64,000 nt of DNA, taken from contig CP012158.1 of NCBI GenBank assembly GCA_001189275.1, positions 930,001-994,000 on the forward strand. Reading direction: 5' to 3'. Positions 7,325-46,767 of the stretch are shown piece by piece. The notes under the pieces were generated by a model, which saw only the letters and a program-made list of their open reading frames with translations, had not been told where the DNA came from and did no database searches. Both the position numbers and the translations under genes were made by a program. The first letter of the stretch is position 1. The number at the start of each line of letters is the position of its first letter. Source of the DNA: Pyrobaculum sp. WP30 (GTDB lineage: Archaea > Thermoproteota > Thermoprotei > Thermoproteales > Thermoproteaceae).

Positions 7325-7350
7325 CCATCCCCCCACACGTTCAAACAGCT

Positions 7351-7554
7351 TCAGCGTAGACGTTGCGCGGTAGCCTGATTTTCCGTAACGAAATAATACG
7401 TCACAGTGCCGTCGTTGCTCACCAGCGCCAACACGGCAGGCATTGAAATGGTCTCGCCTATGTTTATGACACTTAACAGAGTGTGAACCGTAACCTCCAC
7501 GCCCTCCACCATGACGTAGAAGAGATACCTGTCCTTATTCTCGGCCACAAACAT
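7351..7554 (-). CDS. small hypothetical protein
   Basis: A 67-residue frame beginning MFVAENKDRYLFYVMVEG. Alternating hydrophobic and polar residues suggest a small beta-rich fold. The same frame reads on upstream to ANCGILERLGDRM before meeting a stop at about 7591, with no alternative start codon. It could therefore be the tail of a decayed gene. It faces away from etfB across a strong TATA region. Function unknown, and weakly supported as a real gene. Confidence 0.35.
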   Translation of the reverse strand: MFVAENKDRYLFYVMVEGVEVTVHTLLSVINIGETISMPAVLALVSNDGTVTYYFVTENQATAQRLR

Positions 7555-19003: not shown

Positions 19004-19920
19004 CTCTCTACCTCGCCATAGGCGGAGGAGGAGACGTGGTGATGGCCGCCGCCCTCGCCGGCGACGAGGCGGTGGGCCAGATCCCCTGGGAGAGATATGT
19101 GGTAGACCCCACGCCGGGCCCGGTGCCGCCAGACGCGCTGAGGGAGGTGGCGAAGGCCGGGGAGGGCCTCTACCTCGCGACCCCACGGAGCTACGTGGAG
19201 CGGGGCGGCCGGCGGTTCAAAACCCAGGGCATGTGCGTCGCCGAGGTGCTGAACAAGTCCGTATATCTGGTGGACCCCTACAGGCGGCCCAGCGAGCTGG
19301 CCAAAACCCTCGCCAGCTTCGGCAGGATAATCGGCGTAGACGTGGGAGGAGACGTCTTAGGCGTCGGTTGCGAGGAGTCTCTGGGTAGCCCGCTGGCGGA
19401 CGCCTACGGCTTAGCCGTCTTGGCGAGACTCGCCGAGATGGGCGCGGAGACTGAGCTGTGGGTCATGTCGCCTGGCGCCGACGGGGAGCTGGATAGGGAG
19501 TACGTCCTCCAGAGGGCGGCAACGGCGGCGCGGGCCGGGGGGCTGATAGGCCTCGTGGGGCTCGCCAGGGGGGAGGTTGAGGTTCTTTCCCGCCTCGTGG
19601 AGACCTGCGTCACCGAGGCCTCGGCGGTGGCGGTGCGCGCGTTTAGGGGGGAACACGGCGTGTCGACGCTGAGGGGAGGCCTCAGGAGAGTTAAGGTGGA
19701 TCTCTGCGCCGCCGCCGGCCTCCGGCTTGACCCCAAGACAATCCTCGGGATGAATAAGGCGGCCCGGTTGATATACGAAAAGGACGCCCCCATAGACGCA
19801 GCCGCCGACCTCCTCCTGGCCGAGGGCATACCCACGGAGCTCCACCTGGAGAAGCTACTGGCGCAGGGCCTTGACCCCCGCGCCGCCGTGGAGGAGCTGA
19901 GGAAAAAGAAACATTGCTAA
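19000..19920 (+). CDS. DUF1152 family protein
   Basis: 306 residues. LAIGGGGDVVMAAALAG is a glycine-rich nucleotide-binding-like loop that opens DUF1152 proteins. FGRIIGVDVGGDVLG and WVMSPGADGELDREYV are further family blocks. Function unknown; the family is common in archaea and sporadic in bacteria. It ends GLDPRAAVEELRKKKHC. A decayed copy of this same C-terminus lies at 31446-31594. Last gene of the SPFH operon; convergent 4-nt overlap with the next gene. Confidence 0.85.
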   Translation: MTLYLAIGGGGDVVMAAALAGDEAVGQIPWERYVVDPTPGPVPPDALREVAKAGEGLYLATPRSYVERGGRRFKTQGMCVAEVLNKSVYLVDPYRRPSELAKTLASFGRIIGVDVGGDVLGVGCEESLGSPLADAYGLAVLARLAEMGAETELWVMSPGADGELDREYVLQRAATAARAGGLIGLVGLARGEVEVLSRLVETCVTEASAVAVRAFRGEHGVSTLRGGLRRVKVDLCAAAGLRLDPKTILGMNKAARLIYEKDAPIDAAADLLLAEGIPTELHLEKLLAQGLDPRAAVEELRKKKHC

Positions 19921-20768
19921 GCCTTCGCCGCCTGGGCCGACTTAGCCTCCTGTAGCAGTTGCCTATACCTCCCACCGTCGAAAGGCCCCACCTTGGCGGC
20001 GACGCTTTCGATATTTACCTTTATTGTCAAGGCCTGGCCGTGCACCGTCACGTTGAGGAAGACGGTGCCGCCCACCGTGAGCTGAACGCCGGCGAACTCG
20101 CAGACGTTAGCCACGTAGGTGCCCGCGCCACTTCCCCGCAGGTCGCCCAGAATCTGGGCGAAGACCTCGGGCCCCAGATACCCCCTCTCTTCGTATAGGG
20201 TGCCGGCGTATCCGAGGTGCGTGCACCGGCCCTTCTCCGCCCTAGTCACGTTGACCCCGCGGAGGAGGTACAACATGGCGCTGTCGGCCGCCGCGGTCTC
20301 CGCTTGGCACTGCCCCGCGGCGCAGCTCACTACATACGTCAAGTTGCCCTCCGTCGCCGACTTAAACGTGATCTTGACCGGCCCCCGAGGCGGCAGATTC
20401 ATCACAAACTCGCCAAAGCTGTAGTTACCCGCCGGCCCCACCCCCACCACGTTCCAGCCGCTCATCTTCACTGAAATATCACCAACATAAACCGTCACAG
20501 TCACCGTGTAGTTAACCTCGTAATTCCTAGCCCCAAACGGTGGCTGCGCGGCGGCGGGCGTGGACGTCGTTGATGCGGCAGGAGGAGTCGCGGTCTGCGG
20601 AGTCGACGCCGTCGACCTGGCGCTCTCCGGCGCCGTCGCAGATGTCTGCGGCGTCTGAGTGGTCGTGGGCGTCGGGGTCCCCGCCGCGCCTTTCTGGGCT
20701 GTGTATAGGAAGTAGAGCGCGGCACCCGCCACGAGGATCAGCACCAGAACCACCCCAACTTTGTTCAT
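19917..20768 (-). CDS. membrane-anchored extracytoplasmic protein with Thr/Pro-rich stalk
   Basis: 283 residues. One N-terminal hydrophobic helix (VGVVLVLILVAGAALYFLYT) serves as uncleaved anchor or signal. A Thr/Ser/Pro/Ala stalk of about 50 residues follows, then a beta-rich domain with four cysteines (VVSCAAGQCQ, GRCTHLGYAG, ANVCEFAG) and several N-x-[ST] sequons. Probably a glycosylated surface protein. TTTTTAAC at about 20790-20797 is placed for the ATG at 20768. It does not carry the five-copy promoter element of the neighbouring genes. Confidence 0.75.
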   Translation of the reverse strand: MNKVGVVLVLILVAGAALYFLYTAQKGAAGTPTPTTTQTPQTSATAPESARSTASTPQTATPPAASTTSTPAAAQPPFGARNYEVNYTVTVTVYVGDISVKMSGWNVVGVGPAGNYSFGEFVMNLPPRGPVKITFKSATEGNLTYVVSCAAGQCQAETAAADSAMLYLLRGVNVTRAEKGRCTHLGYAGTLYEERGYLGPEVFAQILGDLRGSGAGTYVANVCEFAGVQLTVGGTVFLNVTVHGQALTIKVNIESVAAKVGPFDGGRYRQLLQEAKSAQAAKA

Positions 20769-20813: not shown

Positions 20814-21095
20814 CTACTTCCGCCGCTTTTCGAAGGGGTCCTCCCGGCCCAGCACTTCGCTTAACAGCCTCTCCAGCTCGGCCGCCACCTCAGCGCCTTT
20901 AGGCGTCAGGTAGACGACCTCGCCGTCTGTCACGTAGCCGCGCTCCACGAGAAACTGGAGGTACTCCTGAAACCTGCGGTAGTTAACCCTAGCCACAGCC
21001 GCCAGCCGCGACCTAGGCATGGGCCCGCCCATAAGCGCATGCAGAATCCTCGCCACCACGTAGACGTCAGGTAAGAAGCCTCCGCGCCCGCTCAT
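20814..21095 (-). CDS. winged-helix DNA-binding protein (HTH_45-like)
   Basis: 93 residues, almost all one winged helix: VYVVARILHALMGGPMPRSR, LAAVARVNYRRFQEYLQFLV (recognition helix), then the wing GYVTDGEVVYLTPKGAEV. The shape matches archaeal HTH_45 single-domain regulators, and it resembles the gene at 46510-46767. It overlaps the upstream membrane-protein gene by 29 nt, so both are read from the promoter with shared element (a) at 21837-21864. That places it in the shared-promoter group, and it could be the regulator that binds the element (inference). Confidence 0.8.
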   Translation of the reverse strand: MSGRGGFLPDVYVVARILHALMGGPMPRSRLAAVARVNYRRFQEYLQFLVERGYVTDGEVVYLTPKGAEVAAELERLLSEVLGREDPFEKRRK

Positions 21096-21711
21096 AAAAC
21101 TCTAAAGCCCTACGCACCCCCTCCGCCGAGCTCCCCAAAGCCCGCCAAAACGCCACGAGCGACGCGACGGCTGCGGTGTACCCCACCGCCAAGGCCAGAA
21201 AAGCCGCGGTTTCCCACAGAAACGGCATGTACACCTTCCCATCCACCATAAACACGACGACGCTCTCTCCAGGCGGCCCGCCGCCGGGCACGGCCCTCAC
21301 CACCCTAGTCGTGTAGAACGTCAAGTTCCCCACGGCCGAGCTCCCCTGGACCTCCACATAGAGCAGATGCGGCGGGTGGAGAAACACAGCCACAGAGAGG
21401 GCGGCCAGAGCCGCCATCGCCGCCGCAGCCAGCGCCTTGAGCGGGGCCGCGGCCACGCAGACGCGCCTCCACCTGTAGAGATACTCCAACGCCTCAAGCC
21501 CCTCCATACGCCTCCCACCCGGCACGAAGAGTGCCGCCAAAGCCGCCGCCGCGGCCGCCAAGTAGCCCCACGGCCCCACAACCCCGCCGAGGTACAACAC
21601 GTGGACGTACACCCCACCCCACACAGCCACAAGACTGGGGACGAGAACCCTCACCGCCGCCTCGCAACGACCAGCCAAAACAGGCAGAGAGGAGCCTACG
21701 TCAAGCGACAT
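21067..21711 (-). CDS. membrane protein of the regulator operon
   Basis: About 214 residues from the ATG at 21711, which has GAGG 5 nt upstream. Predicted helices: VLVPSLVAVWGGVYVHVLYL, YLAAAAAALAALFVP, a stretch PLKALAAAAMAALAALSVAV, an extracytoplasmic part with an N-x-T site, and AAFLALAVGYTAAVASLVAF. The frame stays open up to a GTG at 21819, but that codon lies only about 10 nt from the TATA box and so upstream of the expected transcript start. No family recognised. Co-transcribed with the downstream winged-helix gene. Confidence 0.6.
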   Translation of the reverse strand: MSLDVGSSLPVLAGRCEAAVRVLVPSLVAVWGGVYVHVLYLGGVVGPWGYLAAAAAALAALFVPGGRRMEGLEALEYLYRWRRVCVAAAPLKALAAAAMAALAALSVAVFLHPPHLLYVEVQGSSAVGNLTFYTTRVVRAVPGGGPPGESVVVFMVDGKVYMPFLWETAAFLALAVGYTAAVASLVAFWRALGSSAEGVRRALEFYERARRLLT

Positions 21712-21805
21712 ACGCCTCAAAGCCCAGGTCCGACGCAGTGCTCCGCGAAGCCCCGCCGTAGATGCGACCACATCCGCAAAACCAGATGCAGAAGGCCCCC
21801 GGCAT
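21701..21805 (-). CDS. short leaderless upstream ORF, 34 codons
   Basis: The ATG at 21805 is exactly 20 nt after the TTTATAA box of promoter copy (a), the same spacing as the starts of the other four genes with this promoter. It opens MPGAFCIWFCGCGRIYGG, rich in Cys, and ends at TGA 21701, overlapping the ATG of the membrane-protein gene in another frame by 11 nt. It could be a translated leader peptide that couples translation to the downstream gene, or a frameshifted N-terminus. Speculative. Confidence 0.3.
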   Translation of the reverse strand: MPGAFCIWFCGCGRIYGGASRSTASDLGFEAYVA

Positions 21806-21836: not shown

Positions 21837-21864
21837 ATGTACTCCAGGTATGAAAAATTTAAAA
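21837..21864 (-). promoter_or_regulatory. shared promoter element, copy (a)
   Basis: One of five copies. On the plus strand it reads TGTACTCCAGGTATGAAAAA preceded by A and followed by TTTAAAA. A TTATAA TATA box lies 5 nt to its left (downstream on the transcribed minus strand). This copy serves the operon with the membrane protein and the winged-helix gene. Confidence 0.85.
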
Positions 21865-21874
21865 AGTGGAGGGG

Positions 21875-22657
21875 TTACTGGTAGTACAGCGTCAAGGTGC
21901 CGCTGTATGTAACCGCGGCGGTGCCTTGGTTAATCACCACAGCATACACGGTCTGCGACGGGTCCACGGGGAACTGCGTCGAGATCCTTGTGCCCAATGT
22001 ACACGCCAGCTGGCCGATCCTCGCGTACGCATCTACATAGCCCACACATACGTTAGACGCAGGACTCCAGCTTACGTCAAACTGCATAGCCAAGACGCCG
22101 GAGTATGGGCCATAAGAACCGGCAGAAGAGGGCGCCAGCGTGCCGGAGATGGGCACCACCACGCGGACAATCGCAGGCTCCGGACCCCTCTCCACCATTA
22201 CGCCCGGAGGCACCACCTCCACTATCTTACTCACAAAAGTCTCATTTGTAACTTCGTCGATGACCAGAAGCTGGTCCCCCACCAACTTGGCCTTGTAGTA
22301 CTTGACGCCAGCCGGCGCAGGCGCCTCAGGCACGCGGTCCACCCTATCCACACGCACAGACTCCACAAAACGCACCTTCACCCGAGCCACCTCGCCACCA
22401 CTCCCAGGATCCACCAACACAAGAATGTCGTTTTCCAGCCTCGCCACAAACAACTTCACGCTTGAATTCGCAAAAGGCGCCGCCACCCGGGCCACCTCCT
22501 TGCCAGTCCGGGGATCAATAAACTTAACAACATCGCCCTCCACCCCGGAAATATAATACTCCCGCCCGCCGTGACCACTCCCAAGCTGAGTAGCCGCCGC
22601 CAACGCCGCCGCAACCACAGCCAACGCCACAATCCCCAAGACCCAAACCTTCGCCAT
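21875..22657 (-). CDS. secreted or anchored beta-rich protein
   Basis: 260 residues. MAKVWVLGIVALAVVAAALAA is a signal peptide or anchor. The mature part begins with two similar units, DVVKFIDPRTGKEVARV and DILVLVDPGSGGEVARV, so it contains a short tandem repeat with the pattern D-[IV]-[VL]-x-[FL]-[IV]-D-P-x-[TS]-G-x-E-V-A-R-V. A third weaker unit (QLLVIDEVTNETFVSK) follows. The C-terminal domain is beta-rich with two Cys. Start ATG 22657 is 20 nt downstream of the TATA of promoter copy (b). No family recognised. Confidence 0.7.
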   Translation of the reverse strand: MAKVWVLGIVALAVVAAALAAATQLGSGHGGREYYISGVEGDVVKFIDPRTGKEVARVAAPFANSSVKLFVARLENDILVLVDPGSGGEVARVKVRFVESVRVDRVDRVPEAPAPAGVKYYKAKLVGDQLLVIDEVTNETFVSKIVEVVPPGVMVERGPEPAIVRVVVPISGTLAPSSAGSYGPYSGVLAMQFDVSWSPASNVCVGYVDAYARIGQLACTLGTRISTQFPVDPSQTVYAVVINQGTAAVTYSGTLTLYYQ

Positions 22658-22689
22658 CTCTCCGCTTTGTGAAAGGCGTTATAAGCCTT

Positions 22690-22717
22690 ATGTACTCCAG
22701 GTATGAAAAATTTAAAA
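22690..22717 (-). promoter_or_regulatory. shared promoter element, copy (b)
   Basis: Same 28-nt core as copy (a) and same 5-nt spacing to TTATAA. Here the TATA flank reads GCGTTATAAGCC, and the start codon is in a different frame relative to the element than in copies (c)-(e). This shows that the conservation is at the DNA level rather than coding. Confidence 0.85.
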
Positions 22718-22985
22718 ATGGATATATCACAAGTAATTGGGGTTTGAGCCGCTGTCTTCTGAGGATATGCGCCGCCGATGCGGCCGCCGTGAGCGTTTGC
22801 AGAGCTTTGACCTATCCACCCCGCGTTTAGACCAATGCCTAATGCATCAGACCCTCCGGCCTACGCGCAACGCCCCGCGCAGGCGGATGAACAAAGACAG
22901 ACGGGCCCGCCTTACATGTCAAACACGGGTTAAAACCGAAACGCTAGCCCCCGGCAAAGGGGGCCGGGGAGAGAGGAAAAAGGGT
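22718..22985. other. intergenic region without recognisable gene
   Basis: Between the shared promoter element (b) and the stop of the gene at 22986-24197. It contains a strong GC hairpin near 22952-22970 (GCCCCCGGCAAAGGGGGC) close to the 3' end of that gene, which might act as an RNA stability or termination structure. A plus-strand frame at 22737 has no promoter or family resemblance. Confidence 0.4.
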
Positions 22986-24197
22986 TTAGGAGTTTTCTAT
23001 CTCTCTTTCCATCCGCTCCACGGCTCTTTTACTATTTTCAACAATGGTCTTGAAGAAGTTAATTACTCTCTCCTCTTCTATGCCCCACAGCTGGGCCATG
23101 GCCTTGACGCGCTCCGGGTCGTTTAGTAACCTGAGGTATTTGTAGAGGTCGAAGTTGTAGATCATGTGCCGGGCCAATTTCTCCGGCGCGTAGACAAACG
23201 CCGCCGTCTTAATAGGCGGAACGTCTATAAAAGAGTCGGCGAAACACCGCCCCACAACGCCCACAGCCCCGACGACTTCGATGTCTAGGTAGTACAGATT
23301 CACCCATGCCTTCACATCATAATACGACACAATCGCGTTAGGACCCTGTGGGCCGCCAATCCACACCACAGGATACACCATCTCTGCAGAAGGCCTCCCC
23401 TGCAACATGGAGTTCGGAGATTTATGTCCCACACCCAACACCAAGTTGTTACCGCATGGGTCCAGCTCCACGCCTAGGTGCCTCCGGGTGAATTGTCTAA
23501 AGTCTTGGTCATCCATAACCATTAGGCGGACCGAGGAGCCGATGCCCATGGTTTCATTTTTATATGCCACCAATATGACGTAGCCGAGGTTGGATAGGAG
23601 GTAGAACTCCGAGATCTGGCGGTAGTTGGTGGATAGCCACCTGACGAACTCCTCCGGCGGCACCGTCTCGGGGTACGTCGCCGTGAGTCTAACTGCCTCC
23701 TCGAAGCTCTGGAACAGCAAGCTCCGGACAGACTCCCGCCACGCGGTGAAATTACCGCCAGCGTAAGTGGCAACCACAGTGTCGTTACGTTTAGGCTTCA
23801 GATAATACCTCTGCTCCGCAACCCGTAACATAACACCAGCGTCTATAAAGTCGTAAGGCGCCAGCTCCAGCTCTACAAACACAGGCGGCCCAAGATCCTT
23901 CGGCCGCGTCCTCGTCGTCGCGGCGGACTGCTCAGCAACCGCTGACTGCGGCGTAGTAGCGGCGGTGGCCGGCGTAGTAGAAGCCGGCGGGGCCTGCACG
24001 GTAGTAGTTGTCGAAGTCTGCTCGGCGGTGGTTGATACTGCGGCCGCCGGGGCGGCTGGTAGCGGCGTGGCAGGCTGGCGGTCTCCCGGCGGGGCGTAGG
24101 CGGGGGCGGGCGGCTGGCTGTTTACAGCCGCCACTAGCCCCAGCACCACCAGCAGAGCCACAGCCACCGGGATCAAAACGTACGTCCAGAGCCTCAT
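22986..24197 (-). CDS. membrane-anchored extracytoplasmic protein with long Thr/Ala/Pro stalk
   Basis: About 403 residues from the ATG at 24197 (ATGA overlap with the upstream gene). N-terminal anchor YVLIPVAVALLVVLGLVAAV, then a low-complexity stalk of about 90 residues (PATPLPAAPAAAVSTTAEQ and similar), then a globular domain of about 290 residues with N-x-T sites and two conserved-looking Cys. The C-terminus is helical (EERVINFFKTIVENSKRAVE). Resembles the architecture of the 19917-20768 protein. Second gene of the operon behind promoter copy (c). No family recognised. Confidence 0.7.
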   Translation of the reverse strand: MRLWTYVLIPVAVALLVVLGLVAAVNSQPPAPAYAPPGDRQPATPLPAAPAAAVSTTAEQTSTTTTVQAPPASTTPATAATTPQSAVAEQSAATTRTRPKDLGPPVFVELELAPYDFIDAGVMLRVAEQRYYLKPKRNDTVVATYAGGNFTAWRESVRSLLFQSFEEAVRLTATYPETVPPEEFVRWLSTNYRQISEFYLLSNLGYVILVAYKNETMGIGSSVRLMVMDDQDFRQFTRRHLGVELDPCGNNLVLGVGHKSPNSMLQGRPSAEMVYPVVWIGGPQGPNAIVSYYDVKAWVNLYYLDIEVVGAVGVVGRCFADSFIDVPPIKTAAFVYAPEKLARHMIYNFDLYKYLRLLNDPERVKAMAQLWGIEEERVINFFKTIVENSKRAVERMEREIENS

Positions 24198-24658
24198 GGC
24201 CACCACACCAGTGCCGTTATGGAGTAACTATAGACCACATTATTGCTTTGGCAGTATCCTAGGTATTGGTAGTTGCCCCAGGCGTCGTATTTCGCTAAGA
24301 AGGGGCCGAAAGATCCACTTCTTATCATAAGCCACGGATCTGTTGTGCTGCGTGCGTTAAGTATCGTTGCTTTGTTTACCGGTATACAAACCCAATTCAC
24401 CATTCTGCCGGCGTAGTTATCTGCGTAGAACCACGCCCAGCCGTCAGATATCTGGGAGCCTTGGCACCCGAAGTTGGAATATTCCCCTAGGGCGGTGATG
24501 TTGCCTCCTATCCAGGCGACATCATAACTGGGACCGGCGCCTACGGCGATTGCATAGTCGGCGCAGGAGGTACTTACCCAAGCGCTACCTGCATGTAGTA
24601 GGGCCGCGGCTATCAACGTCGCCAGCGCCACTATTTTTAGGAGCTGGGGTTTGGACAT
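24194..24658 (-). CDS. small secreted Cys-containing protein with shared leader
   Basis: 154 residues from the ATG at 24658. MSKPQLLKIVALATLIAAAL is a signal peptide whose first nine residues are shared with the genes starting at 27617 and 31330. Mature protein about 130 residues, rich in Trp/Tyr/Ser/Asn with four Cys (SCADYA, NFGCQG, WVCIPV, YCQSNN), suggesting a disulfide-stabilised exported domain. It has YSYSITALVWWP at the end. Its unusual composition for a cytosolic protein supports export. First gene of an operon with the anchored protein 22986-24197. Confidence 0.7.
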   Translation of the reverse strand: MSKPQLLKIVALATLIAAALLHAGSAWVSTSCADYAIAVGAGPSYDVAWIGGNITALGEYSNFGCQGSQISDGWAWFYADNYAGRMVNWVCIPVNKATILNARSTTDPWLMIRSGSFGPFLAKYDAWGNYQYLGYCQSNNVVYSYSITALVWWP

Positions 24659-24689
24659 GCCTCGCCGTGTGGGAGGGGTTATAAACCTC

Positions 24690-24717
24690 ATGTACTCCAG
24701 GTATGAAAAATTTAAAA
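24690..24717 (-). promoter_or_regulatory. shared promoter element, copy (c)
   Basis: Same core as the other copies, with GGTTATAAACC as TATA and 20 nt to the ATG at 24658. Together with copy (d) it is nearly identical over about 110 bp, reaching from the element through the first codons of the signal peptide. Confidence 0.85.
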
Positions 24718-24742
24718 GATGGATATGGGGAAGCCGAGCGTC

Positions 24743-25291
24743 TTAGCCCGTTTTGAGGTGGCGTCTGCCCACTAGGCGTGTTAGGTGGAGCGTGGCTAAT
24801 GTGGTGGCGTAGGTGATGAAGAACCTGGCCCAGTTGAGGTAGGTGGTCTCTGGGTTGTCGCCGATGGCGTAGAGCGCCCAGTCGGGCAACAAGTTGGCGA
24901 AGCGCAGAGGCGGCGCCGGCATGAGAGACAGCGCCAGTTGCGCCAGAAACACAACGACGACGCCTAAGAGGCCTCCCAGCCTCCACCCAGCCCAGAGAAG
25001 CCCAAGCCAGCCCCACACCAACACATAGATCTGAGACGCAAAGAGAAGAACGACGCCCCATAAATCCCGCTGTGCGAAGAAGGAAAGAGCCGCAACCGGC
25101 AGACCTACCGCCGCCGCCGAGAGGGCGAAACGCCGGCACTCCACAAAAACACAGACAGCGGAAACAACGGCCAAGACATACCCCACGTTAGCCCTAACCA
25201 GCTGCTGAACACCCCACCAAGGAGGCATGGCAGACGACAAAAAGACAAAAAACCCCAACAAAAAAAGAAGAATCGGCTTCCAGACCGACAT
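24743..25291 (-). CDS. polytopic membrane protein downstream of the 774-residue secreted protein
   Basis: 182 residues with about five transmembrane helices (WKPILLFLLGFFVFLSSAMP, ANVGYVLAVVSAVCVFV, LWGVVLLFASQIYVLVWGW, LLGVVVVFLAQLALSLM, FFITYATTLATLHLT). Its start lies one base beyond the stop of the upstream gene, so both are co-transcribed from promoter copy (d). Function unknown; it could help membrane attachment or export of the partner. Confidence 0.7.
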   Translation of the reverse strand: MSVWKPILLFLLGFFVFLSSAMPPWWGVQQLVRANVGYVLAVVSAVCVFVECRRFALSAAAVGLPVAALSFFAQRDLWGVVLLFASQIYVLVWGWLGLLWAGWRLGGLLGVVVVFLAQLALSLMPAPPLRFANLLPDWALYAIGDNPETTYLNWARFFITYATTLATLHLTRLVGRRHLKTG

Positions 25292-25292
25292 C

Positions 25293-27617
25293 TCAACTAA
25301 TGGGGATGTAGTACCTCACCCACCCAATGCCCCCATAAGGCTCTGCCGGCCCGCTGAAGTAGCTGGACGAACTAAACCCGACATATGTAAAGAAGTTAAC
25401 GAGGATGCCATCTCCAGGGTAGATTGATAAGGTACTTGCGTAGGAGTCACGTACATACAGCGATATGTACTGTTTATAATCTCCGGAGACGACCGGTGCT
25501 TGTCCTATGCTTACACCTAATGACGCACTAAGTATCCAGTCGTAGGAAGCGGCGCTGTAATACTTGCCAAGGTAGCCAGAAGGCCCGCACGACCCTTGGC
25601 CACTAGGTATCATCTGTATGAAGAGTCCCAGTCCCCACGTGATGTACCCCGCGGCGGTCAAGGCGCCGGTGTAGGGCAGACCAAATACCGTTGATACCAA
25701 AGTAGCGGCCGTTATAACGTTACCAAACGTGTTGATAATAGCGCCGCCTATAGACACAGCAGTGTCAAGGATAGGGTTTGCGTTGCCCCGAGCAACAAAC
25801 AACTCAACATATTCTGGAAGGCCGAGGGCTCCGGTTTCCGTGGCAAGACAAATAGACTTAAGCTGAGTATAGGTATAGCCGTCAGTAGGTATATAGGCAT
25901 AAGAGATATACGGACGCAAGGGGGCGTGCGGTGTCAATACGGCGCCTGCCTGGGTGGTTATCGTCACGTACGCCACGGCGCGTATATACGGCGCCGTGTC
26001 GTTGTAGGGGCGGTACGACTCAGGCCATACGCTATATGCCCAGTAGTCCCTAGCAACTATGGCGGATGACAGACCTGTGTAGGCGTATGTCCTAGATGAA
26101 GTAGGCAACCAGTTTTGGCTGGTGTGGCTCCAGATGTCGGGCCATCTCTGGCCGTAGATGTACATGGAGTCGAAGGCTACGTAGACCTTCTCCGGGTACG
26201 AGGCGCTTAGGGGCGGGTTGAACTCCAGCACCAGCCAGATGGCTGTGGAGTTCCCGGCCAAGAAGGGCGCCGCCGCCGACTCGGGCAGGGTGCCTGTAAT
26301 TCTGGGGAAGTAGTACCAGCCGCAGAGGTTTGATACGTATTTGTAGCCGGTGGCCGTCACGGCGCTGTTGGGGTCTGCCAGGGAGTAGATCCTCACCGAG
26401 ACGCTGGAGCTGGAGCTACAGGTGTAAACTCTCAGGTTCTCAACCACGAGGTTTATGGGCATCTGGGCCCCCTGCGGCACGCCTATCCTGAAGAGGAGGC
26501 GGGAAACCCTTGTCCAGCCGTAGTCGCCTATGAACTTGTAGCCGGGTTGCCCCACCGCCGACAGCCAGTTTGCTGTGAGGAGGGAATACACCGAGGTGTC
26601 TGCCGGCGAGGGTCTGCGGTAGACCGCCGCTATGCTGGCGTTGACGAGGCGGTTGTAGGGGTTGGAGATCTCTGCGGAGAACCAGACGTATCTATTCGCC
26701 TCGTAGTCTGTGGTGGAGATCCTCAGCAGATACGCCCTCCCGAAGGGGGGAGCCTGCGTGGAGATGTATCTATACGACGTGGGAGGAGTTGTGGTGGGGA
26801 CGTCTGAGACGTAGATATAGGCGTAGACCCAAGGATCTCCCGTGTCGGTGAAGAACAGGTATATGTCGGCGACGCCCTTCCCCAGGTAGGCGTAGTTGGT
26901 GCGGCCTACCACGAAGTCTTTGGCGTTGGCGTCGTAGCCTGTGGCGACGAAGTAGGTCACCTTGGCTCTGGGGTAGCCCGCCACTTTGGCGGGCCCTGCC
27001 ACTCCGAAGATGTAGCGGGCCCAGCTGTACACGGTGGTTCCTTGCTTGCTTGTGTCTGTGTATGAAAGAGGCGCCGCGTCTCCAACGCCCTCCGCCCCGG
27101 CGGCTCTGTTGTTTCTAGGCTTCCTCACGTCTAGCGGCTTCCCTCTGTAGAGGTATCTCCCGCCGCGCTCCTCGGCGTCGAGGAAGACGTACACTGCGGA
27201 GGCGTTTGGAAGCTCGGTGGCGTTTCTGGCGAGTGCCAGCCTAACAACGCCGAGACCCTCCACCTCTAGATCCACGACCTTAGCCTTAATCCCCCTCGGG
27301 ACGGCCGGGGGTTTTTTGCTGAAGTAGGTGCGGGGTATGGCCAAGTAGATGCCCTGCGGGACGTACATGGTGGTGTTTATCCCCAAGTCGGCGACGATCA
27401 CCTCCCTCTCCACCGACAGCAACACCACCGGCGCGTGAACCAGAGTGGAGTTGAGAACCACATAGGGCATATAAGACCCCGGGTCGAACTCTACAAAAAC
27501 GTAATCAGCCACGTCATCAGGCAACGAACCGCCGCCGACCCCTCCAGCCGCCAACAGCACCACAGACATAAACAACACCGCCAGCGCCGCTATTTTTAGG
27601 AGCTGGGGTTTGGGCAT
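25293..27617 (-). CDS. large secreted protein (774 aa) with shared leader
   Basis: Begins MPKPQLLKIAALAVLFMSVV, the leader shared with two neighbours, followed by a cleavable-looking AAGGVGGG stretch. The mature protein of about 745 residues is rich in Tyr, Ser, Thr and N-x-[ST] sites, beta-rich throughout. Near the C-terminus is a hydrophobic patch (INTFGNVITAATLVSTVFGL and ITWGLGLFIQMIP) and CGPSGYLGKYYSA. I do not recognise a family; no protease triad is evident. Start ATG 27617 is 20 nt after the TATA of copy (d); the frame is open further upstream to 27971, but that would read through the promoter. Likely a surface or exported protein. Confidence 0.7.
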   Translation of the reverse strand: MPKPQLLKIAALAVLFMSVVLLAAGGVGGGSLPDDVADYVFVEFDPGSYMPYVVLNSTLVHAPVVLLSVEREVIVADLGINTTMYVPQGIYLAIPRTYFSKKPPAVPRGIKAKVVDLEVEGLGVVRLALARNATELPNASAVYVFLDAEERGGRYLYRGKPLDVRKPRNNRAAGAEGVGDAAPLSYTDTSKQGTTVYSWARYIFGVAGPAKVAGYPRAKVTYFVATGYDANAKDFVVGRTNYAYLGKGVADIYLFFTDTGDPWVYAYIYVSDVPTTTPPTSYRYISTQAPPFGRAYLLRISTTDYEANRYVWFSAEISNPYNRLVNASIAAVYRRPSPADTSVYSLLTANWLSAVGQPGYKFIGDYGWTRVSRLLFRIGVPQGAQMPINLVVENLRVYTCSSSSSVSVRIYSLADPNSAVTATGYKYVSNLCGWYYFPRITGTLPESAAAPFLAGNSTAIWLVLEFNPPLSASYPEKVYVAFDSMYIYGQRWPDIWSHTSQNWLPTSSRTYAYTGLSSAIVARDYWAYSVWPESYRPYNDTAPYIRAVAYVTITTQAGAVLTPHAPLRPYISYAYIPTDGYTYTQLKSICLATETGALGLPEYVELFVARGNANPILDTAVSIGGAIINTFGNVITAATLVSTVFGLPYTGALTAAGYITWGLGLFIQMIPSGQGSCGPSGYLGKYYSAASYDWILSASLGVSIGQAPVVSGDYKQYISLYVRDSYASTLSIYPGDGILVNFFTYVGFSSSSYFSGPAEPYGGIGWVRYYIPIS

Positions 27618-27648
27618 GTCTCGCCTTGTGGGAGGGGTTATAAACCTT

Positions 27649-27676
27649 ATGTACTCCAGGTATGAAAAATTTAAAA
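27649..27676 (-). promoter_or_regulatory. shared promoter element, copy (d)
   Basis: Same core and spacing. Similarity with copy (e) extends further upstream (a GAGCTGGCCTGCGGGC-like stretch at about 27691-27706 versus 31411-31426), so copies (d) and (e) share a longer duplicated upstream segment. Confidence 0.85.
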
Positions 27677-27851
27677 GATGGATGTAGTTGGGCTGGCCTG
27701 CGGGCGGGCTGGTCCGCAACGGCGCTGGGCGGGGCCGGGTGGTTGCGGCGTGTGGGCGTGGCGGGGTGTAGAGATGCGTTTGGCGTGTTTGGCGGGGGGT
27801 CTGGAGCGTGGGGCTTCGTCGTAGCTTATATATCTGTGTGGTGTGTTTACT

Positions 27852-29006
27852 GTGAGGCGGTTGGTTGTGGAGAACGTGGGTCCTGTTAGGTTTGCCGAGC
27901 TTGAGTTGCCCCGTGTTTCTGTTGTTGTCGGCGGCAATGGCTCCGGCAAGACGACACTTGCGACGATTCACTACTTGACCTTGTTTCAGGAGGCGCCGGA
28001 GGTGGCTGAGGAGGATGTGGTTACGTTGGAGGTGGGGGAGGGCTACGTCGAGGTGGATCTAAGGGAGCACTTGGATGTGGTGTGCGGCTACGTGAAGGGG
28101 CTGATTAGGCGTCTTTTCCAGACGGAGCCTGGCCGTTTGATCTCGCAGGGGGAGGCCTCGGCGGCGGTGAGGGTTGAGGCCGGAGGGGTCCGGCTGGAGG
28201 TGGCGCTGGAGAGAGGAGGCTCTGTGGCGTGCGATTTGGCGGGCGCGGCGGCGAGGAGGTTTGAGGTGAAGGTGGTGGAGACGGGCCCCGGGCCTCTTGT
28301 AGTGTGGAGGAGGGACAGGGTTGAGGTGGTTGGGAAGGTGGGGGGCCGCGTGGATGTGCCTGGCGTCGTCTATGCGGTGTTGAGGCAGATCTTTGGGGAG
28401 GGGTGGGTCCCCGCCGCGTTTCTACCTACGGAGCGGCTGGCCGTGGTTGCCCTTATGCCTCTGCTTCAGCGCGAGATCTGGGCCTTCCCGCCTGCGCCTT
28501 ATAAGCCGTTGATTTTTGACTTCCTCCGCTGGGCGCCGCCGGGTGAGTACGAGGAGCCGCTTCTAGGCCTTAGGTTCAGGGTGGAGCGCCCCGGCAGAAT
28601 CGTGGGCGTGGTTCATAAGGGGGAGGAGATCCCGCCGTCGCTGGTGGCCTCGGGCTCGGCTCAGTTCGCCGCGGTGGCGATGGCGGCGTCGAGCCCCGGC
28701 GTTGCGAGCCTCATAATAGAGGAGCCGGAGCTCAACCTCCACGTAGACGCCCAGCTGAAAGCCGCCGAGTACCTGGCGTCGCTCAGCCACAGGCTCTTCA
28801 TCACGACGCACAGCGATCTATTCGCCATAGCTCTCGTACACCACCTCAAGAGGCGGGGCAGACTGGGCGAGGTGAAGATCTACGAACTCGTGAGGGGCGA
28901 GGCGTCGGAGGTCCCCATCGACGAGAGGGGCGCAGTCGGCGAGTTCAAAACGATAACGCCCATAGAGCTGAAGGCAGTTGAGCAGTTCCTTGAAGACTTA
29001 GCGTGA
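27852..29006 (+). CDS. AAA ATPase of the OLD/RecF-like (AAA_21) class
   Basis: About 384 residues. VVVGGNGSGKTTLATIHYL is the Walker A loop; SLIIEEPELNLHVDAQLKAA holds Walker B with catalytic Glu and the D-loop; RLFITTHSDLFAIALVHHL is the H-switch. A short arm replaces the long coiled coil of SMC/Rad50. Such ATPases are common partners of nucleases in anti-phage or DNA-repair modules. The likely start is GTG 27852, about 20 nt after CTTATATAT at 27824-27832. It is followed by a small Cys-cluster gene with a GTGA overlap, so the two proteins probably act together. Confidence 0.85.
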   Translation: MRRLVVENVGPVRFAELELPRVSVVVGGNGSGKTTLATIHYLTLFQEAPEVAEEDVVTLEVGEGYVEVDLREHLDVVCGYVKGLIRRLFQTEPGRLISQGEASAAVRVEAGGVRLEVALERGGSVACDLAGAAARRFEVKVVETGPGPLVVWRRDRVEVVGKVGGRVDVPGVVYAVLRQIFGEGWVPAAFLPTERLAVVALMPLLQREIWAFPPAPYKPLIFDFLRWAPPGEYEEPLLGLRFRVERPGRIVGVVHKGEEIPPSLVASGSAQFAAVAMAASSPGVASLIIEEPELNLHVDAQLKAAEYLASLSHRLFITTHSDLFAIALVHHLKRRGRLGEVKIYELVRGEASEVPIDERGAVGEFKTITPIELKAVEQFLEDLA

Positions 29007-29395
29007 TCTTTGCCTGCAACAGATGTGTAGCTTGCGTAAAATTTGACAAGCTGTTTGGCAAGGGCGTCGACGCGTTATGCGAGGCGCGGTGCCGCTTAGA
29101 GCGTCCAGACTACGGCGTCTATCTAGACGCCGGCGAGATCTTCCTCGTGGAGGTCGAGTCCACGCTCGAAAACGCGGCAAGGAATATACATACCACGTTG
29201 GGTACCGGCGTAATAAGCAGGCTTAAGGTACGCAAAATCTTTGTCCTATACAGGCGGATGAACGCTAGGCTATCTGCGCAGTACAGCCGCGCCAAAGCCG
29301 TAGCGGAAAAGAGCTACAGAATAAAGATAATTGAGTTGCCTAGCAACATTGCGGAGACAGACCCAGCCCTGGCTGTGGCGTTTAAGCTTGGGTAG
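29003..29395 (+). CDS. Cys-cluster protein, possible nuclease partner of the AAA ATPase
   Basis: 130 residues, GTG start overlapping the ATPase stop. The N-terminus has five cysteines (CNRCVAC, then CEARC), a likely metal site. GVYLDAGEIFLVEVESTLEN has an acidic D-x(6)-E-x-E pattern reminiscent of PD-(D/E)xK nucleases, though no following Lys in the canonical place. The C-terminal half (KVRKIFVLYRRMNARL, RIKIIELPS) looks like an alpha/beta core. The nuclease reading is inference; it has no family I can name. Confidence 0.6.
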   Translation: MIFACNRCVACVKFDKLFGKGVDALCEARCRLERPDYGVYLDAGEIFLVEVESTLENAARNIHTTLGTGVISRLKVRKIFVLYRRMNARLSAQYSRAKAVAEKSYRIKIIELPSNIAETDPALAVAFKLG

Positions 29396-29483
29396 CCGCT
29401 CAAGCTGGGGACCTTCTCCCTCCGAATCAGCATAGTAGTATCTGCAGACAACTCAATGAAAAATAGCGGAAGGAAAAAGTAGG

Positions 29484-30539
29484 TTAGTTTGCGGGCCGTC
29501 TCTTGAGTATGAGTACGGCCGCCGTGGCTACGGCGGCGATGCCAGCCGCTACGGCGAGGATCAACGGGGTGTAGCCGCGGCGTTCCGCGGCCCATTCATA
29601 GCCGGTTTTGGGCCAGAACTCGACTACCATGGGGCTTCTGCACACCCCCGCCAGCTCAATAAACCTCCTTACCACCTTCTCCGCAGTAACCCTATCCGGC
29701 GGAGCCGACCCATTAGGATAGGGGAACACCAGGAGGTAGGGGCCGACGTGGCCATAGTGTAGTACGTGTATAGTGCCCTCCACGCCGTTGGGAAGCTTCT
29801 TAACTGTGCCCAGCTCCCGCTCCAGCGCCTCGGCTACTCTCACTAATTTTCTGCCCTCCTCGTCGTCGGTCCAGTACGGCACTATGTAGATGTACGCCGG
29901 CGGGGTTCTGCCACCCGCCGCCTCACTTATGCGTGAGAGAATCTCAAAGGTCTTCTCCCACCGCGTCGCCTCAATTACCAGCTTCCTCACCTGGAAGAAC
30001 TTACTTCCGTTGCCGCCACTTAGGAAAAACAGGAAGACCTGAGCGTCTTTCATCTCTATTGCTAGGGAGCTAGGGTACGCTGTCGGCCTCTGCGTCTTAA
30101 TGACGGCGCTAGACGCCTCTATGTAGTTTCTGGCTAGGTCGCCTCCCAACGCCTCTTCAATCGCCCTCCGTAGTTCTGTGGAGCTATGGACGCTAATCTC
30201 CACTGCGCGGCGTTCGGAACCGCCTTTGGGCTTAATAATAGTTACATATGCCTTGAAGCGGGGTCCCAGTGCCTTGATGAAGGCGTCTAGGATCTCTTCG
30301 CTCTCCATAGGCGACGCGGGCATCCTCACCTCCGGCACGTCGGTGTGGAGGAGAGGCGTCTTCGCCGTCTCGAAATCCCTAACCACGTAGACGTACACGG
30401 AACAGCCGTCTACATCCATCACAAAATCCGGCCTAGCCACGTCCACTAATGCCGTGAAGTTCAACACCACGACGCTTTGCGCATATGCCGCAACAGACAA
30501 CGCCACCAGTAAGAGGAGAGTCGCTTTAGCCATAGTCAT
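29484..30539 (-). CDS. secreted protein with C-terminal membrane anchor, partner of the serine protease
   Basis: 351 residues. Signal peptide MAKATLLLLVALSVAAYAQS, an extracytoplasmic domain of about 290 residues, then a single helix PLILAVAAGIAAVATAAVLI followed by KRRPAN: a type I membrane protein with a short basic cytoplasmic tail. The middle has alpha/beta character (VEEVLD, KLVRVAEALERELG-type helices). Its start overlaps the protease stop (ATGA), so the pair is co-expressed from promoter copy (e). It may tether or be processed by the protease (inference). Confidence 0.7.
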   Translation of the reverse strand: MTMAKATLLLLVALSVAAYAQSVVVLNFTALVDVARPDFVMDVDGCSVYVYVVRDFETAKTPLLHTDVPEVRMPASPMESEEILDAFIKALGPRFKAYVTIIKPKGGSERRAVEISVHSSTELRRAIEEALGGDLARNYIEASSAVIKTQRPTAYPSSLAIEMKDAQVFLFFLSGGNGSKFFQVRKLVIEATRWEKTFEILSRISEAAGGRTPPAYIYIVPYWTDDEEGRKLVRVAEALERELGTVKKLPNGVEGTIHVLHYGHVGPYLLVFPYPNGSAPPDRVTAEKVVRRFIELAGVCRSPMVVEFWPKTGYEWAAERRGYTPLILAVAAGIAAVATAAVLILKRRPAN

Positions 30540-31330
30540 GGCCCTTTATAAAGTTCTACACCGTAGTAGTCCATGGCATAACGTGCGTTTTGGATCAACA
30601 CATACTGCCAGTTCCCTTGCGGATACCCACCTATTATTATTCCAACTGCCTGAATACCGCAGATAGTAGTTCCGCAAGGTGTAATGCTAAACACGATCCC
30701 ACCACTGTCGGTCTGTTCCGCACGTAAACTACTTATCGGCGCGGCGTATACGCTGCCAGAATACCTATCGTCGTATATAAGTCTTACCTCAGACCATGTA
30801 CCTGTACAGTATGTAGCTCGACCTATTTTAAAGATTGAAGGTAGTATTAAGTCACTTTTTGGATCGTCAACCGCGCCTGTTAGTGGGTGATCAACTAACC
30901 CGCAGTATCTGAGGGGGACTTTTCCGCTTACGCCTCTGTTGGCTACTACCCATACCGCGGCGTCTGGCTTACTTCTATCTGGCTCGTAATAGGGGTTGTC
31001 AGTGCCGCGGTCAATCGAGAACCCGGCCCAGTTGTTATCTCCTCCCCAGCTAAAGTTTGGCTGATATACGTTATTTCCAGCCCCCGAGGGGTCTGTGCAG
31101 TGGCTGGCGGTGATGAAGCCAAGAGAGCCGCCTGACGTTGGGTATACCGGTATCCCGGCGGAGCAGATCACGCCGGTTGATTTTGAGTAGATCTGCACGC
31201 CTGGATATACGGGATTCTCTCTATCTCTCAGCCCTGCGAACACCAACACTACGGTTAACGCCAGCAACAACACTGCTTTCCACATCTTAACCCTTCTAGC
31301 TACTGACTTTAGGAGTTGGGGTTTAGGCAT
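30536..31330 (-). CDS. secreted chymotrypsin-like (S1) serine protease with shared leader
   Basis: 264 residues from the ATG at 31330. The catalytic triad is visible: His77 in GFITASHCTD, Asp123 in KPDAAVWVV, Ser209 in QTDSGGIVF (T-D-S-G-G in place of G-D-S-G-G). Several Cys around them could form disulfides (CSAG/SHC, YCTG/TPCG). The N-terminus carries the shared MPKPQLLK block, then a second, own-looking signal core (MWKAVLLLALTVVLVFAG). This looks as if the shared leader had been added in front of an existing signal peptide. First gene of the operon behind copy (e). Confidence 0.82.
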   Translation of the reverse strand: MPKPQLLKSVARRVKMWKAVLLLALTVVLVFAGLRDRENPVYPGVQIYSKSTGVICSAGIPVYPTSGGSLGFITASHCTDPSGAGNNVYQPNFSWGGDNNWAGFSIDRGTDNPYYEPDRSKPDAAVWVVANRGVSGKVPLRYCGLVDHPLTGAVDDPKSDLILPSIFKIGRATYCTGTWSEVRLIYDDRYSGSVYAAPISSLRAEQTDSGGIVFSITPCGTTICGIQAVGIIIGGYPQGNWQYVLIQNARYAMDYYGVELYKGP

Positions 31331-31361
31331 ATCTCGCCGTGTGGGAGGCGTTATAAACCTC

Positions 31362-31389
31362 ATGTACTCCAGGTATGAAAAATTTAAAA
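31362..31389 (-). promoter_or_regulatory. shared promoter element, copy (e)
   Basis: Fifth copy, same core, 5 nt from TTATAA and about 20 nt from TATA to the protease ATG at 31330. Confidence 0.85.
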
Positions 31390-45990: not shown

Positions 45991-46532
45991 TGCTGTTTAT
46001 CCTTGACGTAATAATCGCGGCGCTGGCGTCTTACGTGGCGTATAAGACCTTCCAGGCCTGGAGGGGACTCTCCGAGGCCCGCCTCTCCCTCTACTCCATA
46101 GGCATGGTTCTCCTAGCCGCCTCGCTCGTGCTGGAGGCCGTGGTGGACATCTACCTCAACTGGCTGACGGGCACGGAGCCCACGAGGTTTATAAGGCGCC
46201 AGGTAGCCCTCTTCAGGCTGGTCATTCAGCTCTTGACCACGGCGGCGCTGGTGCCCATCGCAATCGCTGTCACGCCCTCTCTCTTCTACGCCGTGGTTCC
46301 GCCGCTGTTTATCCTCACGCCAATAAACGCGTTGCTGGCGCTTTACATTGCATCAGTGACGCTGGTGAAGACGCTGGAGAGGGGGACCCCGCCCTTCATC
46401 CCACTCGCCTTTGTGTTCCTGGCGGCGTCGCTCATGTTCCCGTTGCTCTCCCCCGTGGACGTCCTCCTCAGGCTCTTCACGGCCGTGTTTCTCGCCGTAG
46501 GCGTGTTGTATGCCGCGGAAAAGACGAAGTAG
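45990..46532 (+). CDS. polytopic membrane protein of the permease operon
   Basis: 180 residues with about six helices (FILDVIIAALASYVAYKTF, LYSIGMVLLAASLVLEAVVD, LVIQLLTTAALVPIAIAV, LFILTPINALLALYIASV, FIPLAFVFLAASLMFPLL, LLRLFTAVFLAVGVLYAAEK). Start codon overlaps the permease stop (TAATG) and its end overlaps the next gene by 23 nt. Unknown role; the pattern suggests a small integral partner. Confidence 0.75.
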   Translation: MLFILDVIIAALASYVAYKTFQAWRGLSEARLSLYSIGMVLLAASLVLEAVVDIYLNWLTGTEPTRFIRRQVALFRLVIQLLTTAALVPIAIAVTPSLFYAVVPPLFILTPINALLALYIASVTLVKTLERGTPPFIPLAFVFLAASLMFPLLSPVDVLLRLFTAVFLAVGVLYAAEKTK

Positions 46533-46767
46533 GCTCGAGATTGTGGCCGACATACTCCAAACGCTCTCGGCCGGCTGCAAGCCGCCTACACGCGTCGCCA
46601 CGGAGGCCAACTTGGCCTACGACCGCATGGCTAAGATCGTGGAGACCCTCATGGAGAGGGGCGTTGTCAAGGAAGACGGCGGCCTGCTCTGCATAACCCC
46701 CGAGGGGCTCAAGATCCTCAACGCCTACAGACAGTGGCGGGGGTTCCTAGACGCCTTGGGGCTTTGA
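46510..46767 (+). CDS. winged-helix DNA-binding protein (HTH_45-like)
   Basis: 85 residues. LEIVADILQTLSAGCKPPTR, VATEANLAYDRMAKIVETLM (recognition helix) and the wing GVVKEDGGLLCITPEGLKIL match the archaeal single-domain HTH_45 family and the gene at 20814-21095. It is last in the permease operon and may regulate it (inference). Basic N-terminus MPRKRRSR. Overlaps the previous gene by 23 nt. Confidence 0.8.
   Translation: MPRKRRSRLEIVADILQTLSAGCKPPTRVATEANLAYDRMAKIVETLMERGVVKEDGGLLCITPEGLKILNAYRQWRGFLDALGL

Follow-up and report, generated by a model that had tools for sequence, protein, structure and literature searches.

A palindromic promoter element before secreted- and membrane-protein genes of Thermoproteaceae, and its candidate winged-helix regulator in Pyrobaculum sp. 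WP30

An island of minus-strand genes in Pyrobaculum sp. WP30 comprises five transcription units, each headed by the same 28-nt element and together encoding mostly secreted and membrane proteins. What is this element, and which protein reads it? To our knowledge, little is known about the control of secretion in Pyrobaculum and its relatives. Using sequence searches and targeted stretches, we analyzed the 64,000-nt stretch of contig CP012158.1 that carries the island (hereafter, the window), the whole genome and related genomes. As judged from these sequence comparisons, the five elements are one island-specific version of a palindrome that recurs before secreted- or membrane-protein genes across the Thermoproteaceae. 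We propose that they are probably operators read by the island's own winged-helix protein (20814–21095), which would switch a protease-containing secretome. The comparative data thereby support two suggestions of the initial annotation, namely a regulon of extracellular proteins under an activator or repressor site, and that winged-helix protein as its candidate regulator, the sites being linked to its homologues.

The five same-strand copies of the 28-nt block occur exactly where they had been placed: the common 28-mer ATGTACTCCAGGTATGAAAAATTTAAAA starts at positions 21837, 22690, 24690, 27649 and 31362 of the window, and TGTACTCCAGGTATGAAAAA at 21838, 22691, 24691, 27650 and 31363, with no sixth site even at three mismatches and none in shuffled sequence. 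In the direction of the genes, which are encoded on the minus strand, the element reads TTTTAAATTTTTCATACCTGGAGTACAT. The annotated geometry also held: in every copy TTATAA follows the element at a distance of exactly 5 nt, and the ATG comes 20 nt later (21 nt in copy 2); the start of the dyad lies 45 nt from the start codon. Each copy does head its unit, and the in-register ATG at copy 1 opens a 34-codon open reading frame (ORF) and not the membrane-protein gene itself. We confirmed that the units encode nine proteins: one is the winged-helix protein, and each of the other eight carries a signal or membrane segment. Throughout the 1,993,257-base genome, the 20-nt core was found only in the five island promoters, up to three mismatches being allowed. 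The exact core gave only chance-level matches in 44 other genomes of the order, with no excess over a reversed-pattern control, and a scan of viral contigs gave no match. A dispersed repeat or mobile element was rejected, because all five copies sit in promoters of one island and the flanks of copies 1 and 2 are unrelated; the search for extra copies at unrelated genes or outside promoters, which the initial annotation had named as the test for such a repeat, came out negative.

The long conserved element is thus real, but its functional core is narrower than 28 nt and is an imperfect palindrome. The consensus of 20 promoters is ATGTACT-N3-AGTACAT, followed by 4 nt and TTTATAA; it was anchored on the inner TAC/GTA, so that only its outer bases count as independent evidence. 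The island dyad, TCATACC-TGG-AGTACAT (inner part TAC-CTGGA-GTA), is an imperfect copy of it. The dyad was recognized from repeats within homologous islands: AATACGATTCGTATT stands at four places in each of two genomes (G029 and G035), and ATGTACTTTTAGTACAT in two promoters of Thermoproteus sp. CP80 (G038), where it is followed by GAGGTTTATAA. Elements of the AGACTTGGAGTATGC type occur in promoters of G031, G030, G035, G029 and G041, and G032 carries TTAC/GTAA-type dyads (CTTAC-N5-GTAAG type) at a protease promoter and upstream of a winged-helix gene. All the island dyads compared, that of the window included, contain or approximate TAC-N5-GTA. No published description of the motif was found among the papers of the library searched.

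Three lines of evidence concern the position and the targets of the dyad. First, with two mismatches allowed, the spaced pattern TAC-N5-GTACAT-N4-TTTATAA was found 13 times in this genome and its reversed control not once; the corresponding counts are 14 and 1 in G029 and 13 and 1 in G035, and there is no clear excess outside the family. Second, we searched for the palindrome alone, without requiring a TATA box, so that the spacing was not built in. Readable context was available for 28 palindromes at unique places: an AT-rich box stands exactly at +4 in 25 of them (background 7% per strand), and 25 have an in-register start codon (background 19% per strand), the better of the two strands being used per place. 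Part of these contexts belong to loci that had been retrieved by the spaced pattern, but nearly all places of the palindrome search are covered. Third, a hydrophobic N-terminus is encoded by 21 of 23 dyad-headed genes versus 52 of 230 control leaderless genes (Fisher p=7e-11), a comparison that uses a simple hydrophobicity cut-off and is weakened by the choice of part of the loci for their nearness to such genes. The targets include a protease, serpins (protease inhibitors), long secreted proteins of different kinds and several uncharacterized anchored proteins. In the region recognized by TFB, between −7 and −3 relative to the TATA box, 6 of 22 dyad promoters have the dinucleotide AA, compared with 100 of 175 controls.

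Two further observations concern the sites themselves. In the promoters of loci L107, L116 and L121, which belong to the same island lineage, an 8-bp inverted repeat (CCGCCGCT ... AGCGGCGG) flanks the operator and TATA box. A TACACGCCGTACATCCAGTTTAAAA-like site is present in seven genomes (G000:1559894, G029:1244446, G035:875267, G027:347925, G028:120115, G030:1673882 and G031:1714285), with no obvious in-register secreted gene where checked.

As to the protein that may read the dyads, the winged-helix protein scores above the gathering cut-off of Pfam HTH_45 (PF14947; 39.6 bits versus 25.5) and falls below the NCBIfam Sso10a_fam cut-off (39.1 bits versus 60); both its sequence and its fold are similar to those of Sso10a and AspA. 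Its monomer structure model (pLDDT 85) shows a winged helix plus an 18-residue C-terminal helix, with a TM score of 0.68–0.70 to PDB entry 1r7j. Of the 9 exact sites, 8 have a homologue of it no more than 12 kb away (about 0.4 expected); of the 25 one-mismatch sites, 9 do (about 1.1 expected). Residues of the recognition helix may be tied to the outer operator bases, as suggested by RAL near TTAC/GTAA dyads in G032 and G027 only, which are too few cases. In the islands, a membrane-protein gene ends inside the start of the winged-helix gene; from this conserved overlap, we regard the membrane protein as the likely input partner, sensor or tether of the regulator. A second, distant winged-helix homologue lies elsewhere in the window (46501–46764, plus strand).

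The same genome carries a serpin module at about 1,899–1,901 kb (L109 5946–8224), which comprises, in that order, an operator, a membrane protein, a winged helix, an operator and a serpin. Homology between its membrane protein and that of the island was not supported (hhalign probability 0.9%), so that these two proteins are alike in gene arrangement only. Loci similar to the serpin module occur in several genomes.

The dyad, its geometry, recurrence, linkage and enrichment for secreted proteins can be read in the DNA itself; we infer the identity of the binding protein, its binding as a dimer, the sign of regulation, the part played by the membrane protein and the signal. We propose that each of the five elements is an operator joined to a leaderless promoter. 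As its downstream arm ends 4 nt before the TATA box, the dyad covers, with that arm, the position of the TFB-recognition element (BRE). A dimer of the Sso10a-like winged helix would bind each dyad and coordinately switch the protease, its partner, the SGT protein (Table 1), the other secreted proteins and its own operon, while the membrane protein encoded by the overlapping gene would act as sensor or tether.

Concerning the sign of this switch, we slightly favor activation by recruitment of TFB, given a weak-looking BRE and an almost constant distance to the TATA box and start codon. In a serious, if less probable, variant, the winged helix occupies the BRE and excludes TFB until it is released by a signal. 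Such repression fits the overlap of the BRE position by the downstream arm, the presence of the element in the regulator's own operon, which is consistent with autorepression, and the precedent of TrmB, which represses malE from a palindrome overlapping BRE/TATA (PMC4158304). Steric blocking would not, however, need the near-invariant TATA spacing seen at unlinked promoters, and a weak-looking BRE is also found in promoters activated by TFB-RF1 (PMC5937170).

Several observations weigh against the assignment of the dyads to the island's winged helix. First, five of the eight linked exact sites come from this genome's island and serpin locus, which brings the independent support below the raw count, and orthologous sites are not independent either, which inflates the linkage. 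Second, the dyads at 164.9, 841.8 and 1794.5 kb of this genome lie far from any winged-helix homologue, so that their reader must be either another regulator or one that acts in trans. Third, conservation as strong as that of the dyad extends over an A/T-rich stretch of 11 to 14 nt on its upstream side (TTTTAAATTTT...), for which the dyad does not account. Fourth, the left arm of the island dyad is degenerate, with CATACC in place of ATGTACT. Fifth, TACT-N3-AGTA, the published operator core of TrmB (PMC4158304), is contained in the 20-promoter consensus (the island left arm having TACC), and this genome has fourteen TrmB-domain matches.

From this shared core, one may propose that the operator and regulon are as described and that another regulator, such as a TrmB-family protein, is the reader. 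TrmB of P. furiosus binds TACT-N3-AGTA at the malE BRE/TATA (PMC4158304), and some dyads are distant from every Sso10a-like gene. We nevertheless consider a TrmB-type reader unlikely, since the island holds no TrmB match, only one of seven exact sites (this genome and G030) has a listed TrmB match at most 12 kb away, and the sites are strongly linked to Sso10a-like genes, again so where the dyads have other spellings. The likeness to TrmB of Pyrococcus and Thermococcus lies in the operator core and its place at BRE/TATA, whereas TrmB is a regulator of sugar transport with a domain that binds sugar (PMC4158304); the island protein is HTH_45-like, and the Pfam scan gave it no match to the TrmB DNA-binding domain (PF01978), none being listed at its locus either.

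Could the elements be nothing regulatory, but recently copied promoter plus signal-peptide cassettes that have not yet diverged, or a promoter-bearing mobile repeat? Copies 3 to 5 share 90% of their leader and 50–73% of the start of the coding sequence (signal-peptide DNA), which points to probable copying of a promoter plus signal-peptide cassette, as also seen in Thermoproteus sp. CP80 and G035. By contrast, the block stays 93–97% identical at copies 1 and 2, both flanks of which are unrelated (near-chance similarity), and a block kept amid unrelated flanks must be constrained. As the dyad also recurs with fixed spacing at non-homologous promoters, and as every copy in this genome sits in a promoter, we hold a purely non-regulatory origin to be very improbable. 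The 28-nt identity probably has two sources, operator constraint at copies 1 and 2 and recent cassette copying at copies 3 to 5. Least credible of all is an alternative core promoter read by a specialized TFB paralogue, which would suit the fixed TATA spacing but not a two-fold symmetric dyad whose spelling varies among islands together with the linked winged-helix gene.

The proposed winged-helix switch resembles known archaeal systems by arrangement. In Pyrococcus furiosus, TFB-RF1 (PF1088) activates from a palindrome, TCTG-N5-CAGA, that directly precedes a weak BRE (PMC5937170). The likeness to TFB-RF1 extends to the conserved TATA distance, to the regulator gene being second in its operon and to the autoregulation of that operon (PMC5937170), the island regulator's operon likewise carrying the element. 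The island differs by its half-sites, by a dyad nearer the TATA box and touching the BRE position, by a membrane protein as first gene of the operon, by secreted targets and by several private operator spellings. Sso10a of Sulfolobus (PMC4941522; PDB 1r7j) shares the small winged-helix fold, recognizable at the profile level, but was studied as a chromatin protein (PMC4941522), whereas its island relatives are tied to promoter palindromes and paired with membrane proteins. Similarly, ArnR and ArnR1 of Sulfolobus acidocaldarius are membrane-linked helix-turn-helix (HTH) proteins that control genes for surface structures; the inverted repeats on which they act (TCGAC-N5-GTCGA) lie upstream of the promoter (PMC6396743). 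In ArnR, the HTH and membrane segments form one chain (PMC6396743), whereas the island has them in two overlapping genes, and its dyad adjoins the TATA box.

With about even confidence, we suggest that the Thermoproteaceae possess a family of two-gene modules (a membrane protein and an overlapping Sso10a-like winged helix), each with a private palindrome spelling, that would read extracellular conditions and set separate secretome regulons, including the trypsin-like protease island and the serpin unit of one cell, cassette copying adding genes to them. The finding would also connect the secreted protease island and the serpin unit of this genome to one kind of switch. The operator, the linked small regulator and the membrane partner are directly testable parts, and they offer specific DNA targets for Sso10a-like proteins, which bears on whether these are chromatin proteins or specific regulators.

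Table 1. Genes and promoter elements of the island (positions in the window).
Feature	Position	Strand	Remarks
Secreted protein adjoining winged-helix gene	19917..20768	−	own TATA box, no dyad; conserved neighbor in other islands
Winged-helix protein, 93 aa, candidate regulator	20814..21095	−	Pfam HTH_45; Sso10a/AspA/MarR-like fold; homologues linked to dyads
Membrane protein, several hydrophobic segments	21067..21711	−	3' end overlaps winged-helix start; pair kept in at least 8 genomes
34-codon ORF	21701..21805	−	ATG in register with copy 1; stop overlaps membrane-protein start; sequence reading
Element copy 1	21837..21864	−	17-nt dyad 21837–21853; TTATAA 21826–21831; heads 34-codon ORF, membrane protein and winged-helix gene
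SGT protein	21875..22657	−	signal peptide; C-terminal domain (YGPYSG...SGTLTLYY) conserved; of no known family
Element copy 2	22690..22717	−	TTATAA 22679–22684; heads SGT protein gene
406-aa protein	22986..24206	−	N-terminal membrane segment
154-aa secreted protein	24194..24658	−	signal-peptide DNA common with copy 4
Element copy 3	24690..24717	−	TTATAA 24679–24684; heads 154-aa and 406-aa genes
182-aa multi-pass membrane protein	24743..25291	−	travels with 774-aa protein
774-aa secreted protein	25293..27617	−	relatives elsewhere outside such islands, without dyad
Element copy 4	27649..27676	−	TTATAA 27638–27643; heads 774-aa secreted and 182-aa membrane protein
351-aa secreted protein	29484..30539	−	C-terminal membrane segment; paired with protease
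Secreted trypsin-like serine protease	30536..31330	−	ASHC/AGHC, DA and DSGG motifs
Element copy 5	31362..31389	−	TTATAA 31351–31356; heads trypsin-like protease and 351-aa protein

Almost none of the nine island proteins received a family name in Pfam and NCBIfam scans (Table 1). The protease was read as trypsin-like because its ASHC/AGHC, DA and DSGG motifs are invariant among homologues. The structure model of the SGT protein was poor (pLDDT 44), too low for fold comparison, and a profile search of genome contigs with its alignment found matches only in Thermoproteus sp. CP80. The pair formed by the 774-aa protein and its 182-aa neighbor also occurs at L049, L053 and L054 in other genomes, without dyad, and therefore probably joined the island regulon later. 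The 34-codon ORF is possibly a leader peptide or a decayed signal-peptide cassette.

Within the island, but on the opposite strand, lie two genes (27843–29395, plus strand), one for an AAA_15/OLD-like ATPase and one of 130 aa; PADLOC gave only weak hits, to AriA, PD-T4-4 and Gabija-type ATPases, and the two are possibly an inserted defense-like pair. In G032, twelve consecutive G (L126, about 7345–7360) directly follow the dyad that precedes the winged-helix gene, and may disrupt the frame of the gene lying between.

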